Positions 3,678-10,259 of a stretch of 38,397 nucleotides of DNA are shown here, one piece after another; position 1 is the first letter of the stretch; each line of letters starts with the position of its first letter. The translations under genes were made by a program, and so were the position numbers. A model generated the notes under the pieces. That model searched no databases and was not told the origin of the DNA. It was given only the letters and a program-made list of their open reading frames with translations. Source of the stretch: Burkholderiaceae bacterium (GTDB lineage: Bacteria > Pseudomonadota > Gammaproteobacteria > Burkholderiales > Burkholderiaceae_C); assembly GCA_030654805.1 (NCBI GenBank), contig JAURWR010000089.1:1-38397 (forward strand), in the 5' to 3' direction.

Positions 3678-4364
3678 ATGACACCGGCCGCCTGGACCGC
3701 GATCCGCCTCACCGCCGAGCTGGCGGCGCTCACGACGGCGCTGCTGCTGATCGTCGGCACACCGATCGCATGGTGGCTGGCCCGCACGCACTCGCGCTTG
3801 AAGCCGGTGTGGTCTGCGGTTGTCGCGATGCCCATCGTGCTGCCGCCCTCGGTGCTGGGCTTCTACCTGCTGCTGCTGATGGGGCCTTTCGGGCCGGTGG
3901 GGCAGTTCACGCAATGGCTCGGCATCGGTCGGTTGCCATTCACGTTCGGTGGTCTGGTCGTCGCTTCGGTGCTGTATTCGATGCCGTTCGTCGTGCAGCC
4001 GCTGCAGCAGGCGTTCGAGGCGATCCCTGAGCGCACGCTGGAAGCCGCGGCCACGCTGCGCGCCTCGCCGCTGGATCGCTTCTTCAGCGTCGCGCTGCCG
4101 CTGGCACGGCCGGGTTTCGTCACCGCCAGCGTGCTCGGCTTCGCGCACACGGTCGGCGAGTTCGGCGTGGTGCTGATGATCGGCGGCAACATCCCGGGCC
4201 AGACACGGGTGTTGTCGGTCGCGATCTACGACCATGTCGAGGCCGGCGAATTCAGCGAGGCGCATCGTCTGGCGGCCGGCATGGTGGCGTTCGCCATGAT
4301 CGTGCTCGTGACGCTGTACGTGGTGAACAAGCCGCGCCGGGACGATGCGGAGGCCCTGCGGTGA
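3678..4364 (+). CDS. modB: Molybdate ABC transporter permease ModB
   Basis: A 228-residue inner-membrane permease that forms the molybdate channel as a dimer. It has about five hydrophobic helices, including LTTALLLIVGTPIAWWLA and VLGFYLLLLM. The cytoplasmic EAA loop, which docks on ModC, is visible as LEAAATLRASPLDRFFSVALPLARPG (about residues 121-146), followed by GFAHTVGEFGVVLMIGGNIPG, typical of ModB. It starts 34 bases after modA and its TGA overlaps the GTG start of modC by four bases, so the three genes are co-transcribed and probably translationally coupled. Confidence 0.96.
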   Translation: MTPAAWTAIRLTAELAALTTALLLIVGTPIAWWLARTHSRLKPVWSAVVAMPIVLPPSVLGFYLLLLMGPFGPVGQFTQWLGIGRLPFTFGGLVVASVLYSMPFVVQPLQQAFEAIPERTLEAAATLRASPLDRFFSVALPLARPGFVTASVLGFAHTVGEFGVVLMIGGNIPGQTRVLSVAIYDHVEAGEFSEAHRLAAGMVAFAMIVLVTLYVVNKPRRDDAEALR

Positions 4365-5440
4365 TCGAAGCCACCTTGCGCCTGCAACGCCGGGACTTCC
4401 GGCTCGACGTCGCGCTCGCTTTTCCGGCGCACGGCATCACCGCGCTCGTCGGCCCGTCGGGCTGCGGCAAGACCACCGTGCTGCGGGCGCTGGCCGGGCT
4501 GGAACGCGCATCGGGGCGCGTCGCCTGGGGTGCCGAGGTCTGGCAGGACGACGCCACCGGCTGCTTCGTGCCCACGCACCGGCGGCCACTGGGCTACGTG
4601 ATCCAGGAGGCGGCGCTGTTTCCGCATCTGGATGTGCGCGGCAACCTGCACTACGGACGCCGACGCAGCGACGGCGAGTCCGGTCGCATCTCCCTCGACG
4701 CGGTCGTCGATCTGCTCGGCATCGGACACCTGCAGGCGCGGCGCACGGCCACGCTGTCAGGCGGCGAACGCCAGCGCGTGGCGATCGCTCGCGCGCTGGC
4801 CACCGGCCCCCGCCTGCTGTTGATGGACGAGCCGCTGGCCGCGCTCGACGCAGCACGCAAGGCCGAAATCCTGCCGTACCTCGAGCGCCTGCATCGCGAA
4901 CTGGCGCTGCCGGTCGTCTACGTCACGCATGCGATGGACGAGGCGGCGCGGCTCGCGGACCATCTGGTGCTGATGCGCGATGGACAGGTCGAAGCGGCCG
5001 GCCCGCTGGCCGAGTTGATGGCACGCACCGATCTGCCGCTGAGCCGGCAGGACGATGCCGGGGTCGTGATCGAAGCGCAAGTCGTCGAGCACGACCGGCC
5101 ACACGGCATGACCCGCATCGGCTTCCACGGCACGACCCTGTGGGTCGGCGAGGCTGCGGCGCCGCCGGGGGAACGCGTGCGCGCACGGGTGCTGGCCCGC
5201 GACGTCAGCGTGACCCGCCAGCGGCCCGGCGAGACCAGCATCCTGAATGTGCTGCCCGTTGTCCTCGAAAGCGTGCAGCGCGAACGCACCACCGCACTGC
5301 TGCGACTGCGCGTCGGCCACGACGCATCGGAACACGACTGGACCCTGCTCGCACGCATCACGAGCAGGAGCTTCGACACCCTGGATCTGCAACCGGGCGA
5401 CGCGCTGCACGCGCAGATCAAGGGTGTCGCATTGATGTAG
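4361..5440 (+). CDS. modC: Molybdate ABC transporter ATP-binding protein ModC
   Basis: A 359-residue ATPase that powers molybdate import. The ABC domain has the Walker A loop GPSGCGKTT (about residues 32-40), a Q-loop in YVIQEAALFPHL, the signature LSGGERQRVAIARAL, Walker B LLLMDEPLAALD and the switch histidine in VYVTHAMDE. The C-terminal third is a TOBE/Mop-like molybdate-sensing domain (VRARVLARDVSVTR, ETSILNVLP, DALHAQIKGVALM), present and complete. It starts with GTG, overlapping the modB stop. The next gene, modD, follows after eight bases. Confidence 0.96.
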   Translation: MIEATLRLQRRDFRLDVALAFPAHGITALVGPSGCGKTTVLRALAGLERASGRVAWGAEVWQDDATGCFVPTHRRPLGYVIQEAALFPHLDVRGNLHYGRRRSDGESGRISLDAVVDLLGIGHLQARRTATLSGGERQRVAIARALATGPRLLLMDEPLAALDAARKAEILPYLERLHRELALPVVYVTHAMDEAARLADHLVLMRDGQVEAAGPLAELMARTDLPLSRQDDAGVVIEAQVVEHDRPHGMTRIGFHGTTLWVGEAAAPPGERVRARVLARDVSVTRQRPGETSILNVLPVVLESVQRERTTALLRLRVGHDASEHDWTLLARITSRSFDTLDLQPGDALHAQIKGVALM

Positions 5441-5448
5441 GACCCACG

Positions 5449-6678
5449 ATGGAGCGAATCGACGACGACGAATTGAGGCGCTGGCTGCGCGAAGACGCGC
5501 CGCACGGCGACCTGACCACGCGCACGCTGCGGCTGGGCAGTCAACCGGGTCGCCTGCAGTTCCAGGCCCGCGGCGCCATGCGCGTGGCGGTGATCGAGGA
5601 GGCCGCGCGCCTGTTCGAACTGTGCGGATGCGAGGCGGTCGTGGTCGTGCCCAGCGGCAGCGACGCGGCGCCAGGCGAGACGCTGCTGAAAGCCGAGGGA
5701 CCTGCGGACGGGCTGCTGCTGGCGTGGAAGGTGGCGCAGACGGCCGTCGAGGCGGCCAGCGGCATTGCCAGCGAAGCGGCACGCATCGTCGCGCTGCTGC
5801 GCACCGCCGAGTTCAGCCAGCCGCTGGCCTGCACGCGCAAGAACTGGCCGGGAGGTCGTGCGCTGGCCGCACGGGGGGTGTGGGCCGGCGGCGCGGTGAT
5901 GCATCGGCTGGGCCTCTCGGAAACGCTGCTGGTGTTCCCCGAGCACCGGGCCTTCCTGGCGCCCGCCGATGTCATGGCATCGATGACCGCGCTGCGAGCT
6001 GCCCAGCCCGAGAAGAAGCTCGTCGTCGAGGTGGGCAGCGAGGACGAGGCGATGGGCTTCGCGCGCGCCGGCGCCGAGGTGCTGCAGCTCGAACGCTTCA
6101 GCCCGGCGGCACTGGCGGCGCTGCGTCGGCGCCTCGACGCCGAGGGGCTGCGGCCGCTGCTGGCACCGGCCGGCGGCGTCACCGCCGCCAATGCCGTGGA
6201 CTATGCACGCGCCGGCGCCAACTTCCTGGTGAGTTCGGCCCCCTACTTCGCCCCGCCCGCCGACGTGAAGGTCGTCATCGCGACCGCCTCCGTCGGAACG
6301 CTAGCGAAGCGGGACCTCGCGGACCGAGGCACCTATTGCGGGCGTCTGATTCCTGGCGGAAAGTCGAACTGCTCTTTCCGACCCGCAGGCGACATCCAAC
6401 CGATGAGTTTCACGACTGGCAAGCGGTCGTTGCGGCGGAGCGCGATGGGCACCAAGTACCTGAGCCCGCACCCCGTCAGGCGCACGGTGCAGCGTTGCGC
6501 CCAGCAAGCCCATGTCGGCGCTACTCATCAGTGCCTCAATGTTGGTCGGTATGCGCATGCGATCCACGTCGGCGGCCTTCACGGACCCTCGCCTCTAGAA
6601 TCGCGCTCGCGCAATCAACATGACCAAGCCATCTGCCCTTCCCAAGGTACGCAACCCGCGAAAGCCTACCCTGCCTGA
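5449..6678 (+). CDS. modD: ModD, quinolinate phosphoribosyltransferase-like, C-terminally fused to foreign sequence
   Basis: ModD belongs to the quinolinate/nicotinate phosphoribosyltransferase fold and is linked to molybdate transport operons; its exact reaction is not settled. The domain is intact from MERIDDDELRRWL through HGDLTTRTL, ACTRKNWPGGRALA, VVEVGSEDEA and APAGGVTAANAVDYA to VSSAPYFAPPADVKVVI. Family members normally stop within a few residues of that last motif (near 6275). Here the frame continues for about 130 more residues of unrelated low-complexity sequence to a TGA at 6678, overlapping the start of the methyltransferase gene by 59 bases. The natural end appears to have been replaced by the island. 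The enzyme core may still be functional. Confidence 0.88.
   Translation: MERIDDDELRRWLREDAPHGDLTTRTLRLGSQPGRLQFQARGAMRVAVIEEAARLFELCGCEAVVVVPSGSDAAPGETLLKAEGPADGLLLAWKVAQTAVEAASGIASEAARIVALLRTAEFSQPLACTRKNWPGGRALAARGVWAGGAVMHRLGLSETLLVFPEHRAFLAPADVMASMTALRAAQPEKKLVVEVGSEDEAMGFARAGAEVLQLERFSPAALAALRRRLDAEGLRPLLAPAGGVTAANAVDYARAGANFLVSSAPYFAPPADVKVVIATASVGTLAKRDLADRGTYCGRLIPGGKSNCSFRPAGDIQPMSFTTGKRSLRRSAMGTKYLSPHPVRRTVQRCAQQAHVGATHQCLNVGRYAHAIHVGGLHGPSPLESRSRNQHDQAICPSQGTQPAKAYPA
6285..6619. other. Island left border, no credible gene of its own
   Basis: Between the end of the real ModD domain and the methyltransferase start, the only plus-strand coding potential is the read-through tail of modD. 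A 93-codon minus-strand frame (6301-6582) has no recognisable motif and no good ribosome-binding site. A TAGAAT hexamer at 6596-6601, 19 bases before the methyltransferase ATG, could be a -10 box, but no convincing -35 partner is visible. I see no direct repeat, integrase or tRNA end that would name the insertion mechanism. Confidence 0.4.
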
Positions 6679-7741
6679 TGTCGCCCGGATTGAGGTGGTC
6701 GACTTGTTCTGCGGTGCGGGAGGCCTGAGTTGCGGCTTGAAAAAGGCCGGCGTGCGGGTGGTGGCCGGCATTGATGTGGATGCGACCTGCAAGTACCCCT
6801 ACGAGGCCAACCACCCTGGCGCAAAATTCTTGCTGCAGGATGTGACCACTCTGACGGGAGCTGACCTGAAGGCACTGTGGAGCCCGACGTCGGTGCGGCT
6901 GCTGGCGGGCTGCGCGCCGTGCCAGCCCTTTTCAAGCTACGCCAACACCAAGGTGGCGGCTGAAAATGACAAGTGGGGCTTGCTGTACCAATTCGGGCGT
7001 TTGGTGGCTGAAACCAAGCCCGACCTGGTGACCATGGAAAACGTGCCGGGCCTCGCCGCCCAAGCGCCGTTCAAGGCGTTTTTGCGCATCCTCAAAGCTG
7101 CGGGCTACAACATTCAATACGCGGTGCTGAACGCGGCGGACTACGGTGCGCCGCAGCAGCGCAAGCGCCTGGTGCTGCTAGCGTCTCTGCTGGGCCGGGT
7201 GCAAATGCCTGCAGCCACGCACCCGGGCTCGGCCCGGTGGGTGACGGTGCGCGACGCGGTGGGTGCCTTGCCGGCCATTGACGACGGCGAGGTATCGACC
7301 CAAGACCCGTTGCATCGGGCGTCGGCCCTGTCGCCCTTGAACCAGCAGCGTGTGCGTGCTTCAAGGCCCGGCGGCACCTGGCGCGACTGGCCCGCTGACT
7401 TGGTGGCCGAGTGCCACCGCAAGCCCAGCGGCCAGCATTCGGCCGGCGTGTATGGGCGTATGGAGTGGGACAAGCCCGCGCCCACCATGACCACGCTGTG
7501 TATTGGCTACGGCAATGGGCGCTTTGGGCACCCGCAACAGCACCGGGGCATTTCGCTGCGCGAGGCGGCCATCTTCCAGTCGTTCCCACCCAGCTACAAA
7601 TTCGTGAAGCCAGGCTCGCCCGTGTTAGCCAAGCGGCTGGCGCGGCTGATAGGCAATGCTGTGCCGCCTAAGTTGGGGGAGGCGGTGGGGCGGGCGCTGC
7701 AGGCGGCAGTGCGTTCACCCGCAGGTACAGCCGACGCGTGA
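6620..7741 (+). CDS. DNA (cytosine-5-)-methyltransferase
   Basis: A 373-residue C5-cytosine DNA methyltransferase. Motif I is VDLFCGAGGLSCGL (about residues 27-40). Motif IV, GCAPCQPFSSY, carries the catalytic Cys (about 101). Motif VI is MENVPG, motif VIII is GAPQQRKRLVLLAS, and motifs IX-X include LTRLIGNAVPP-type sequence (RLARLIGNAVPP near 344-355). The target-recognition region between VIII and IX is short, so the recognised DNA sequence cannot be read off. All catalytic motifs are intact. Its 3' end overlaps the convergent HEPN gene by 74 bases. Together with that gene and the DUF262 gene it probably forms a restriction-like module in which the methylase marks self DNA; that role is inference. 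Confidence 0.95.
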   Translation: MTKPSALPKVRNPRKPTLPDVARIEVVDLFCGAGGLSCGLKKAGVRVVAGIDVDATCKYPYEANHPGAKFLLQDVTTLTGADLKALWSPTSVRLLAGCAPCQPFSSYANTKVAAENDKWGLLYQFGRLVAETKPDLVTMENVPGLAAQAPFKAFLRILKAAGYNIQYAVLNAADYGAPQQRKRLVLLASLLGRVQMPAATHPGSARWVTVRDAVGALPAIDDGEVSTQDPLHRASALSPLNQQRVRASRPGGTWRDWPADLVAECHRKPSGQHSAGVYGRMEWDKPAPTMTTLCIGYGNGRFGHPQQHRGISLREAAIFQSFPPSYKFVKPGSPVLAKRLARLIGNAVPPKLGEAVGRALQAAVRSPAGTADA

Positions 7742-8420
7742 GGTAGTCGTCGACGTGGCCGACCACACTGGCGAGGCAGTTCAGTAGGCCGTTGGCATCG
7801 CTGTCTACATCGGTGTAAGCCAGCGTTTGCCCGCAGTCGCGGAAGCTGAGTTCGCCATGGGCCAGCTTGTTGCGGCGGTTCTTGGTGGTCAGCAAGCTGG
7901 CATGGCTGAGGTGCGTGTCTTTGCCTTCTTCCAGGCTGGCGAAGCCGTAGTCCCGACCGATTTCGCGGATGCGCTTGCTGTCCACATTGCCTGAAAGCTG
8001 GTAGTTCTTGTTTTCCTTGGCGCGGATCTCGTAGTCACGAAGCCAGTGGTCAATGATGGTGCCGCCGCTGGGCACGGGTGCCGATTGGTCATTGATCTCA
8101 ACCCTGCTAGTACGAAACCGCTGCAGGATGTGGAGGTACATCTGCGGGTGCAGTTCATCCAGAACGGCACCGCTTTGTTTCACCGTGCGGTGAATGTCGG
8201 CGATGAGCTGTGTCATCGTTGCTTCCACCACGTTGTACAGCAGCAAGTAGGTGTTGGCCTTCAGCGTGTGGGTGAGTTCCATGTCCAGCGCAAAGGGCGC
8301 AGGCAGCGTCCGGGCGTGAAGTTCAGTCCCGCGTTCAAGCGCTGCTTGCAAGAACGCCAGGTAAGCCCGCACCTCGGTGGCACGGGCGTTCAACAGCGCG
8401 CAGCTGAGCGCGGTGGGCAT
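7668..8420 (-). CDS. HEPN nuclease, MAE_28990/MAE_18760-like
   Basis: A 250-residue, mostly helical protein. It contains the HEPN catalytic motif R-x4-H, seen as RRNKLAHGELSF (Arg183, His188), after a long helical N-terminal region with LKANTYLLLYNVVEATMTQ. HEPN proteins of this motif are typically metal-independent RNases in toxin and defence systems. I associate the overall layout (a YNVVEA helix, a variable middle, then K-x-RNKLAHG) with the MAE_28990/MAE_18760 family. It starts at the ATG of a TGATG overlap with the DUF262 stop, so the two are co-translated. Its Pro-rich tail (PPAAPAPPPPP) is coded by the strand opposite the methyltransferase 3' end and may be non-essential. Confidence 0.85.
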   Translation of the reverse strand: MPTALSCALLNARATEVRAYLAFLQAALERGTELHARTLPAPFALDMELTHTLKANTYLLLYNVVEATMTQLIADIHRTVKQSGAVLDELHPQMYLHILQRFRTSRVEINDQSAPVPSGGTIIDHWLRDYEIRAKENKNYQLSGNVDSKRIREIGRDYGFASLEEGKDTHLSHASLLTTKNRRNKLAHGELSFRDCGQTLAYTDVDSDANGLLNCLASVVGHVDDYLTRRLYLRVNALPPAAPAPPPPPT

Positions 8421-9604
8421 CAAGCTACCAAGCTGAGTTGTTCGGGGTCGGCCGGTGCGTCCAGGTTGGCGCTGGCTTCGAATTTGGCGGTGTCGCCGTC
8501 GTATTGGACGGGTCGACCCATCAGGTTGTCGCGCACAAACTGAACCCGGTTGACGACCTTGGGCCGTGAGTTGCTGGCGTCAGAGCGGGTGTGTTTGGTG
8601 AACTCGTCGCTTTCAAGCCAGGCGACGACGTTGTTCGGTGACAGTTCAGGCCGTTCTCGCAGGGCCAGCGTGGTGCCCACCGACAAGCACTCGAAGCGGA
8701 TACGAGCCACTGTGTTGGCGGTCGGCGACTTTCTGAAGCCGTTGGGAATGTGGCGCTTCACGAAGGCCAGCATGGCCTCAAATTCTTGGACGCTGGACGC
8801 TTCTGCTTGCCGGTCGTCGGCCTGGTTACGGGTCTTGAGGTAGTCGGTCAAGAACTTATCCACGCGCTTGGTGAACCTGGCGTAGTTGTCGCAGTAGGCG
8901 AAGTAGCGCAGTACCAGTTCAACGTGTTCGGCCCGGTCGGCCAGGGACTTGTTCACGGGGCAAAGCTCCAAGAACAATGTGTTTTTGGCACAGGCCTCCA
9001 CCACCTTCAGGAAAGGCCCGTCCAACGTGCCGCGGCGGGTTTCCATGCTCTCCAGTTTGGTGCCACCGCTGTTAAGGCGCTCAAACATCTCGCGCCGGGC
9101 CTCGTTGTCGGCCCGGCGCGTGAGCTCAATGACGCGCACCGTCTTGCGCTTGAAGCGCAACTGCCCAGGCAAAGAAAAGTCTTGCAACTTCAGGCCGTTG
9201 GCCAGGCTAACCTTCTCCAACTGCTCAAGCGTGAGCTTGTTTTGCAGGAAGTTGGCCAGCGTGCGCGTGCGCTGTGAACCGTCGAGGATTTCAAGGTGAC
9301 CGGCGCGGGGTCCTTCGGGCACGTCGGCTACGAACATATAGGGCACCGGCAGGTTCATCAGCAGCGACTCTATGAAACGCGACTGTTGCCGCGCCGACCA
9401 GATGAATTCGCGTTGGTAGTCCGGGATGAAGATTTCGGCCTCGTCCGTTTCCAGGCCGCAGGTGAACTTGTCCACCAGCACCTCAATGGGATATTCGCGA
9501 ATTTCGAAATCCGTCACCTTGCGGATGGCGTCGATCTGCTCATCAAGCCGATCTGCGAGAACTTTCGGAGTTTCACTGAGCAGTGGTGGGGCGTCTTGGG
9601 TCAT
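8420..9604 (-). CDS. DUF262 (GmrSD N-terminal-like) protein
   Basis: A 394-residue protein with a DUF262 domain, a ParB/sulfiredoxin-like nucleotide-binding fold found in Type IV restriction enzymes (GmrSD) and many defence loci. Signature elements are IPDYQREFIWSARQQSRFIESLL (about 60-82), ILDGSQRTRTLANF (about 106-119; the usual DGQQR is DGSQR here) and MFERLNSGGTKL (about 173-184). I see no HNH (DUF1524) motif in its C-terminal half, so the nuclease function may be supplied by the co-translated HEPN protein. The start ATG at 9604 directly follows the S24 repressor remnant. Likely role: NTP-dependent sensor or effector in a defence module; this is inference from family and context. Confidence 0.9.
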   Translation of the reverse strand: MTQDAPPLLSETPKVLADRLDEQIDAIRKVTDFEIREYPIEVLVDKFTCGLETDEAEIFIPDYQREFIWSARQQSRFIESLLMNLPVPYMFVADVPEGPRAGHLEILDGSQRTRTLANFLQNKLTLEQLEKVSLANGLKLQDFSLPGQLRFKRKTVRVIELTRRADNEARREMFERLNSGGTKLESMETRRGTLDGPFLKVVEACAKNTLFLELCPVNKSLADRAEHVELVLRYFAYCDNYARFTKRVDKFLTDYLKTRNQADDRQAEASSVQEFEAMLAFVKRHIPNGFRKSPTANTVARIRFECLSVGTTLALRERPELSPNNVVAWLESDEFTKHTRSDASNSRPKVVNRVQFVRDNLMGRPVQYDGDTAKFEASANLDAPADPEQLSLVA

Positions 9605-9631
9605 TGTGGTGGCCTGCGGCGAGTTCGGGTG

Positions 9632-9925
9632 TCAGTGCTCTCGCAGCGTTAGCCAAGCCTGAACGCGACCGCAAATGGTCCGATCGTTCTCAGCGGCCAG
9701 CTGCGGGTTGTGCTTGTCGTTGTCTGAACCCACGCGGATCTTGCGCGTGGCGACATCGGCTGAAAGGGGCTTGATGAGCGGTGCGTCGTTGAACATGAGA
9801 CGTAGATGCCATCAGTTTCGAAGCGTCGGTGCCGGTATCGACGAACGCCAGATCGCTTTCATTGATGGCCAAACTCATGCTATCACCGGCCACCATGACG
9901 GCTCGCGCTGACTCGAGGTTGGCAC
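9632..9925 (-). pseudogene. Decayed S24 (LexA/CI-like) repressor, C-terminal peptidase domain
   Basis: The minus strand holds pieces of an S24 autoprotease domain in three reading frames. First comes ARAVMVAGDSMSLAINESDL followed by AFVDTG, containing the catalytic-Ser motif GDSM. Then ETDGIYV appears after one frame change. Then MFNDAPLIKPLSADVATRKI runs on to the end IICGR-like TICGRVQAWLTLREH and a TGA at 9632. Joined, they follow the normal order of a LexA/CI-type C-terminal domain, so at least two indels have broken the gene between about 9795 and 9830. The DNA-binding N-terminus is not recognisable. It sits right behind the DUF262 gene and may once have regulated the island. Confidence 0.65.
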
Positions 9926-10259
9926 CCGGGCTTCGGCCACGTCGATGAGGCCCAGCACCATGGGGCGGTTCACCGCCTTGGCCGGCGGAAGGGCTTGGCG
10001 TTGAGCAGTGCGATGCGCTGGTGGCCGTCTCAGGGTGTCAACGAGTCCTTGCGTTCCTGGGTAGTTGCGAGCTGCAGTTCCGGGCGCCTGAACCGGACCG
10101 TCAGGAGCACCCGCAACTGGCCAACAGTGTGAGTTCGAGATGCAGTGACGGTGACATTGCCTCACGCAAAGAAGTGCCAGGACTTCGCGCGCACCGCACC
10201 AGGAATCTGTCGGGCTTGTGTGGTCGGGCCCGCGCCGTCAACCGAGGAGCCGGTGTGCC
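9926..10259. other. Degenerate right border of the island
   Basis: No credible intact gene. On the minus strand a short piece reads DGHQRIALLNAKP between stops at about 9980-10030, which recalls ParB-like proteins, but it is too short to assign. The sequence looks like decayed coding DNA continuing upstream of the S24 remnant. It ends where the high-GC TANGO2/NRDE gene stop codon appears at 10260. No inverted or direct repeat matching the left border was found by eye. Confidence 0.35.

Follow-up and report, generated by a model that had tools for sequence, protein, structure and literature searches.

The stretch of DNA analysed here (the window: 38,397 nucleotides of contig JAURWR010000089.1, from the Burkholderiaceae bacterium assembly GCA_030654805.1) carries a three-gene module, in which the gene for a C5 cytosine DNA methyltransferase converges on a pair of overlapping genes coding for a DUF262 protein and a HEPN ribonuclease-like protein. 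The three genes belong together and their association is not local: a methyltransferase gene is carried by 83 of 92 readable non-redundant loci containing the DUF262–HEPN pair, in 82 of them adjoining the pair and in one located on the same strand 7 kb upstream. With a probability of roughly one half (0.52), the module may be judged from its sequence to be a mobile defence resembling restriction–modification (R-M), in which methylation would mark self, the DUF262 protein would sense DNA, and the HEPN protein would be an RNA-cutting effector; the roles of all three proteins are assigned from homology and gene context.

Linkage of the three genes

Relatives were collected with a DUF262 profile, which found 312 of them in a collection of 84,980 species and 109 in IMG/VR, and the best 80 of each gave 160 loci. 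The query alignment was built from neighbours of HEPN hits, so the HEPN–DUF262 link in the 160 loci is not independent evidence; when phages were searched with the single DUF262 protein, the 11 of 89 records matched over at least 80% of its length were the same 11 that hold HEPN. Under a 1.5-kb rule, the methyltransferase gene is convergent in 118 of the 160 loci, upstream in line in 23 and downstream in line in one; 12 loci have none and six lie too close to a contig edge. Further loci brought the total to 170, which clustering at 80% identity reduced to 97 representatives, spanning ten named phyla and many viral contigs; L009 (no DUF262 in the stretch), L008 and L065 (a DUF262 piece of at most 250 amino acids) are absent from this set. 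Before counting, two loci were labelled by hand, L015 as a DISARM locus (its methyltransferase being the one 7 kb upstream) and L017 as an edge locus, and in the few loci to which the 1.5-kb rule had not been applied the presence of the methyltransferase was read by eye. The representatives comprise 59 convergent loci, 22 with the order methyltransferase–DUF262–HEPN, one with DUF262–HEPN–methyltransferase, one with DISARM genes, nine with no methyltransferase, and five edge loci, whose exclusion leaves the readable set of 92. The background was given by the distant flanks of the 160 loci, with four C5 methyltransferase hits in 1.03 Mb. On the DUF262 tree the presence of the methyltransferase changes twice and the gene arrangement about eight times, at least four changes of the methyltransferase-first label being forced by well-supported branches. 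The preliminary description of the window had proposed looking for the three families as neighbours in other genomes and had named independent scattering as the outcome that would speak against a module; scattering was looked for, and linkage was found instead.

Proteins of the module

The methyltransferase (6620–7741, plus strand, 373 amino acids) is intact and matches PF00145 with an E-value of 1e-53. It is the sole PF00145 match in the source genome, which is counted in support of the restriction-like defence. Its sequence matches in the PDB include DNMT1, M.HaeIII, and M.HhaI, and in PADLOC it matches DrmMII models (1.5e-80), with a Type II methyltransferase model ranking higher (2.7e-88). 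Motifs PC[QR] and EN[VI] are present in 139 of 139 matches with an E-value below 1e-60.

The HEPN protein (7668–8420, minus strand, 250 amino acids) belongs to the MAE_28990 family, its match to PF18737 (HEPN_MAE_28990; E-value 8e-13, 49.5 bits) being above the curated cut-off of 26.8, while its match to PF18735 (7e-5) falls under the cut-off of that family. Its active site reads R183-N-K-L-A-H188, with R183 and H188 invariant across 100 aligned relatives, and among the 160 loci the motif RN-x-[LIVM]-[AS]-HG is found in 150, nine variants keep R-x4-H and one is cut. No PADLOC model was matched by the window protein, and 14 of the 100 HEPN relatives weakly match the PADLOC model of Csx1/Csm6 CARF-HEPN proteins.

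The DUF262 protein (8420–9604, minus strand, 394 amino acids) has the GmrSD_N domain of ParB-like fold (PF03235, 4e-26) with the nucleotide-pocket motif DGSQR; the pattern DGxQR was found by script in 159 of the 160 loci and the remaining one reads DGVQR. Its PADLOC matches are NsnA (1e-48, the best) and PD-T4-2_A (3e-34). The top rows of a Foldseek search are ParB (7bm8, 2.7e-3) and BrxU (7p9k, 3.2e-3), none of the matches having an E-value of 0.001 or less. No match to HNH or DUF1524 was obtained in the DUF262 or the HEPN protein at E-values up to 1. The DUF262 and HEPN genes are joined by a TGATG stop/start overlap (8418–8422, minus strand), the stop codon TGA of the former and the ATG of the latter having one base in common, and the convergent 3' ends of the methyltransferase and HEPN genes overlap by 74 bases (7668–7741), as they also do in 34 of 58 other convergent non-redundant loci. 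At the level of the genes the preliminary description was accurate: it had claimed an intact C5 methyltransferase facing a pair with this junction, a DUF262 protein of the kind that forms the nucleotide-dependent half of GmrSD, no visible HNH domain, and an intact R-x4-H motif in HEPN, and it did not mention the 74-base overlap.

Mobile elements and defence context

The module lies within a segment (6623–10030) collinear, at 81.4% DNA identity, with pPNAP06, a mobilizable 21.6-kb plasmid of Polaromonas naphthalenivorans. The segment is a probable unit of horizontal transfer, whose left boundary is set by the start of the plasmid record. The G+C content of the three module genes is 0.59–0.65 versus 0.68 for the window. 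The ratio of nonsynonymous to synonymous substitution rates relative to the plasmid copy is 0.11 for the methyltransferase, 0.23 for HEPN, and 0.10 for DUF262, indicating purifying selection on all three. Directly 5' of the DUF262 gene the decayed remains of a regulator gene of S24 (LexA/cI-like) type (9635–10029, minus strand) were found by tblastn with the intact Polaromonas homologue; they consist of three pieces in differing frames, and the homologue on pPNAP06 carries PF00717. Because purifying selection acts on all three module genes, the module is taken to be kept while its former S24 neighbour decays. Distant S24-like matches were also seen upstream of DUF262 in L011, L004, and L127.

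Twelve plasmid records hold the HEPN gene, and among the six opened the methyltransferase is present in three and absent from two, while in one the locus is cut by the end of the record and a Vsr gene comes next. Of the 11 phage records with HEPN two were opened, both with the methyltransferase, in one of them frame-broken. The module is also found on chromosome-sized contigs (L024, L029, L045, and L056). In a Burkholderiales metagenome-assembled genome, the DUF262–HEPN pair ends one contig (L017) and a module-type methyltransferase gene starts another (L197) beside tniQ and tnsA, the module there probably being cargo of a Tn7-like element. On a Hymenobacter plasmid (L009, 1–830) the neighbour of a HEPN fragment at the end of the linear record is a Vsr gene on the opposite strand.

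In E. coli the module is carried by at least three prophage lineages. At least 80% of a lambdoid type is present in 106 of 5,426 genomes, and among the 60 matches listed for it 52 name all three genes and eight the antiterminator alone. Two P2-like types occur in seven (three of them near-identical) and nine of the same genomes, and all 16 of their matches name all three genes. In the three P2-like copies opened with their flanks, the module is situated between the portal and replication endonuclease genes, a position described, in the passages available from Vassallo et al. 2022 (PMC9519451), as the P2 defence hotspot. The DUF262 and HEPN genes are annotated as unbroken in all six E. coli copies opened, and the methyltransferase gene in five, the sixth being annotated as frameshifted. 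In one P2-type allele, a run of G at the same codons of the methyltransferase gene varies in length, with eight G in L003 (2360), six in L221 (2398), and seven each in L095 (9203), L099 (9203), and L220 (3798); slippage switching is a possible cause, as is sequencing error.

In Alcanivorax (L015, 13–14662; L196, 6088–13501), genes for the C5 methyltransferase, drmD-like and drmMI-like proteins, DUF262, HEPN, drmA, and drmB follow one another on one strand. The best PADLOC labels of the drmD-like and drmMI-like proteins are DrmA and Type IIG, the DrmD and DrmMI models following closely. This run is a DISARM system interleaved with the module. Together with the hotspot copies in the three E. coli prophages, it places relatives of the module in a defence context; the preliminary description had proposed to look for them in defence islands.

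The occurrence of the module on plasmids, phages, and viral contigs, and the S24 regulator preceding it on pPNAP06, would also suit an addiction device of toxin–antitoxin kind, in which methylation would be the antidote to a HEPN toxin and the plasmid or prophage, and not the host threatened by a phage, would benefit. Such a device, compatible with the restriction-like defence, appears quite improbable, considering the position of the module in a known defence hotspot, its interleaving with DISARM genes, and its presence on chromosome-sized contigs in several cyanobacteria.

Loci without a methyltransferase, and the almost independent evolution of this enzyme

Several observations weigh against a defence in which methylation is the mark of self. 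Nine of the 92 readable loci, forming two clades, have the DUF262–HEPN pair with no C5 methyltransferase gene nearby, and these clades retain intact motifs. In L048, an edge locus with only 214 bases before DUF262, the 2 kb downstream contain no methyltransferase gene, and none of module type was found in its genome, so that this locus probably represents a third such lineage. The 11 cyanobacterial genomes of the methyltransferase-less loci contain no module-type methyltransferase and 2–16 distant matching places each, the best by E-value (2.9e-30) having 33% identity. One of the cyanobacterial loci without the C5 enzyme has, directly downstream of HEPN, a gene for an N6/N4 DNA methyltransferase (L077, 8854–9831), possibly a replacement. 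From the gammaproteobacterial clade one genome (G420) was searched, and its sole C5 enzyme has 53% identity with Dcm of E. coli. Where this clade occurs in E. coli itself, it is confined to plasmids (11 of 11 places in nine genomes). The Dcm mark of the host may possibly be borrowed. Moreover, in named cases (L003, L221, and L023) the methyltransferase frame is broken beside an intact pair, sequencing error being possible.

The weak correlation of methyltransferase distances with those of the pair weighs against it as well. Over 78 loci the distance correlation between DUF262 and HEPN is 0.75, reached in none of 500 shuffles, as against 0.13 (20/500 shuffles as high) between DUF262 and the methyltransferase and 0.15 (13/500) between HEPN and the methyltransferase. 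Of the 78 methyltransferases, 71, including that of the window, are at least 47% identical to the window enzyme, and seven are divergent (24–28%); with these seven omitted, the DUF262–methyltransferase correlation is 0.11 (35/500).

The methyltransferase also occurs outside the module. A search of 398 genomes of the phylum, with at most four candidates scored per genome, gave matches with an E-value of 1e-60 or less in nine; in six, the genome of the window among them, the identity is at least 50%, and the five others of these six contain no module HEPN. In L200, L202, and L203 the module-type methyltransferase gene lies near a GHKL-ATPase gene, with Vsr in two of the three and no DUF262–HEPN pair, apparently another R-M-like system with the same methyltransferase clade. 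In L199 it lies near a gene for a SNF2-type helicase, and in L201, where the methyltransferase was missed by the caller of open reading frames (ORFs), GHKL-like and Vsr-like ORFs were recognised by eye. Since members of the clade are found with DISARM, GHKL/Vsr, and a SNF2-type helicase, it goes with several systems, contrary to a simple restriction-like scheme.

The strongest rival explanation draws on these facts. It holds that the DUF262–HEPN pair is a complete defence by itself, as PD-T4-2 apparently is, and that the methyltransferase is a passenger shielding mobile elements from host restriction. The two clades and the probable third lineage keeping their motifs with no methyltransferase, the almost independent evolution of the latter, and its relatives of at least 50% identity located not beside the pair but near a SNF2-type helicase, Vsr, or GHKL ATPases all favour it, and methyltransferases of prophages and plasmids are thought, according to passages of PMC4659465, to protect mobile elements. 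Against it stand the linkage at 83 of 92 loci through about eight rearrangements, with presence changing only twice, and the occurrence on chromosome-sized contigs as well (the four named above), and we consider this explanation unlikely.

Target-recognition region of the methyltransferase

The part of the methyltransferase between motifs VIII and IX contains the target-recognition region. Among 74 core enzymes the median pairwise identity in this part is 0.58, versus 0.50 in the preceding catalytic part and 0.57 in the following one, so the region is conserved only about as well as the better of the two. Variation is concentrated in its first third (0.38), the other thirds being at 0.60 and 0.75. 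Eight other C5 methyltransferases compared with the core have 0.15–0.30 in the VIII–IX region and 0.29–0.33 in the first catalytic part, and among the divergent module enzymes the former value is likewise below the latter in six of seven, the two being about equal in the seventh (L133). The region is common to core methyltransferases of eight named phyla and of viral contigs, and to the DISARM-associated and GHKL–Vsr-associated enzymes. Because most methyltransferases have a common target-recognition region, most modules may, by their sequence, mark one DNA site. Compared with Dcm, the window enzyme has an identity of only 25% (197 residues). CCWGG, the site methylated by DISARM according to the passages available from PMC5957327, was considered and could not be assigned to the module, as the CCWGG enzyme of DISARM could not be linked to the module methyltransferase clade. 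In the sections available from the ST131 methylome report no site is assigned to such a prophage enzyme.

Proposed mode of action

In the restriction-like defence proposed here, the methyltransferase, a C5 enzyme by homology, would place 5-methylcytosine at one site in host DNA. The DUF262 protein, a nucleotide-binding protein of ParB/GmrS type, would survey DNA and keep HEPN inactive, as its fold, the gene overlap, and the co-evolution of the pair suggest. On the arrival of unmarked DNA or loss of the mark, a nucleotide switch would release or activate the HEPN endoribonuclease, whose invariant catalytic motif fits cleavage of cellular RNA, and growth would stop before the phage completes its cycle. 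The arrangement would resemble PrrC working alongside a restriction system, with DUF262 replacing the restriction subunits, and the defence would probably be abortive in kind. The preliminary description had suggested a restriction-like or abortive defence; the linkage, the intact motifs of the DUF262 nucleotide pocket and of the HEPN RNase site, and the relatives in the P2 hotspot agree with this, while the methyltransferase-less clades, the frame-broken methyltransferases, and the association of the same methyltransferase clade with other systems do not, so the suggestion stands only in part.

A different, Type IV-like trigger is conceivable, namely that DUF262, like GmrSD and BrxU, senses modified cytosines made by the phage and sets off HEPN, the module's own mark being merely ignored. 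GmrSD and BrxU are DUF262 proteins acting on DNA with modified cytosine, as passages of PMC10952713 have it, and BrxU takes the second row of the weak structural match list; however, a sensor of 5-methylcytosine would fire on the product of the module's own enzyme, and the linkage would be left with no explanation, which makes this trigger very improbable. A further and doubtful extension of the restriction-like defence is a DNA-sparing class with one fixed mark, in which, on the boldest mechanism, DUF262 would act as a guard that reads the module's own methylated site and restrains HEPN while the mark is there, and would fire when a phage destroys, hides, or dilutes the mark, the methyltransferase-less lineages borrowing a host mark such as that of Dcm.

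If the proposed defence is true, the two halves of restriction are separated in it, the DNA-methylation code of self being kept and the punishment being RNA cleavage. Two questions become testable: whether DNA methylation can be read by a switch of DUF262/ParB type, and why a single methylation specificity would persist in different phyla while ordinary restriction systems diversify.

Surroundings of the insert

The insert is flanked on one side by ABC transporter genes, which look by eye to be of molybdate type, and on the other by TANGO2, methyltransferase-like, and ferredoxin genes, followed by nitrogenase and hydrogenase genes. A subset of the window ORFs was scanned as flanking ORFs, and it represents the transport, TANGO2, methyltransferase-like, ferredoxin, nitrogenase, and hydrogenase families. 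A long ORF (4345–6678) crosses the ATPase gene of the transporter in a different frame and overlaps the start of the methyltransferase gene. By eye its latter part is ModD-like, with no Pfam match for 5463–6335, and it extends beyond the usual ModD end, perhaps cut by the insertion.

Relation to known systems

Membership in two known types of system was considered and rejected: GmrSD Type IV enzymes, as no DUF1524 HNH domain was found in the DUF262 or the HEPN protein, and DISARM, as the source genome has no match to the PADLOC DrmA model PDLC02567, one of several DrmA models. Ordinary Type II R-M was not accepted: a predicted methyltransferase is present, but its neighbours are DUF262 and HEPN and no known endonuclease family adjoins it, although DUF262 itself may have nuclease activity. 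NsnA, the best PADLOC match of the DUF262 protein, is a component of Menshen, which resembles the module in having a DUF262 protein. In Menshen, however, DUF262 is paired with a predicted OLD nuclease, not with HEPN, in the passages available from PMC10952713. GmrSD and BrxU have the DUF262 NTPase domain in common with the module, yet, according to the same passages, they cut modified DNA and have a DUF1524 HNH nuclease, for which the module gave no match. The likeness to DISARM consists in the DrmMII matches of the methyltransferase and in the one relative interleaved with DISARM genes. In the PrrC/EcoprrI system, PrrC is an RNase for which a HEPN fold was suggested, and portions of PMC3506569 describe it as dormant on a modification system until unmodified DNA or another signal activates it; it cooperates with a Type Ic R-M system, whereas the module has no recognised restriction subunit.

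The association was listed in 2013, when Anantharaman et al. gave MAE_28990 HEPN genes as "in operon" with ParB nuclease and DNA methylase genes (Table 1 of PMC3710099). Those operons have the same PF18737 HEPN, a ParB-fold gene, and a DNA methylase nearby, and the association listed is, from the portion of that paper available, almost certainly the same as that of the module. The listing is one table row and, in that portion, comes without a mechanism, the methyltransferase type, gene-order variants, methyltransferase-less clades, or phage hotspots. The open-licence literature in PMC contains, as far as found, no study treating the three genes as one system beyond this row, and no functional study.

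PD-T4-2, reported by Vassallo et al. 2022, consists of DUF262 and HEPN proteins and, in the passages available, protects E. coli from T4. It resembles the module in the PD-T4-2_A match and in PF18735, the family assigned to its HEPN, which is matched by 83 of 100 module HEPN proteins at an E-value of 0.001 or less. It differs in that all 100 module HEPN proteins fit PF18737 at the same threshold, the PF18735 match of the window protein is below the cut-off, and DUF262 is nearer to NsnA; the same passages report no methyltransferase for PD-T4-2. No PADLOC model for the PD-T4-2 partner was matched by the module HEPN proteins, the presence of such a model in PADLOC being unchecked. The preliminary description had found no characterised named system to match the module; this holds as regards functional studies and has to be qualified by the 2013 listing and by the DUF262 and HEPN proteins of PD-T4-2, owing to which the module should be regarded as a widespread variant and not as a new kind of system.

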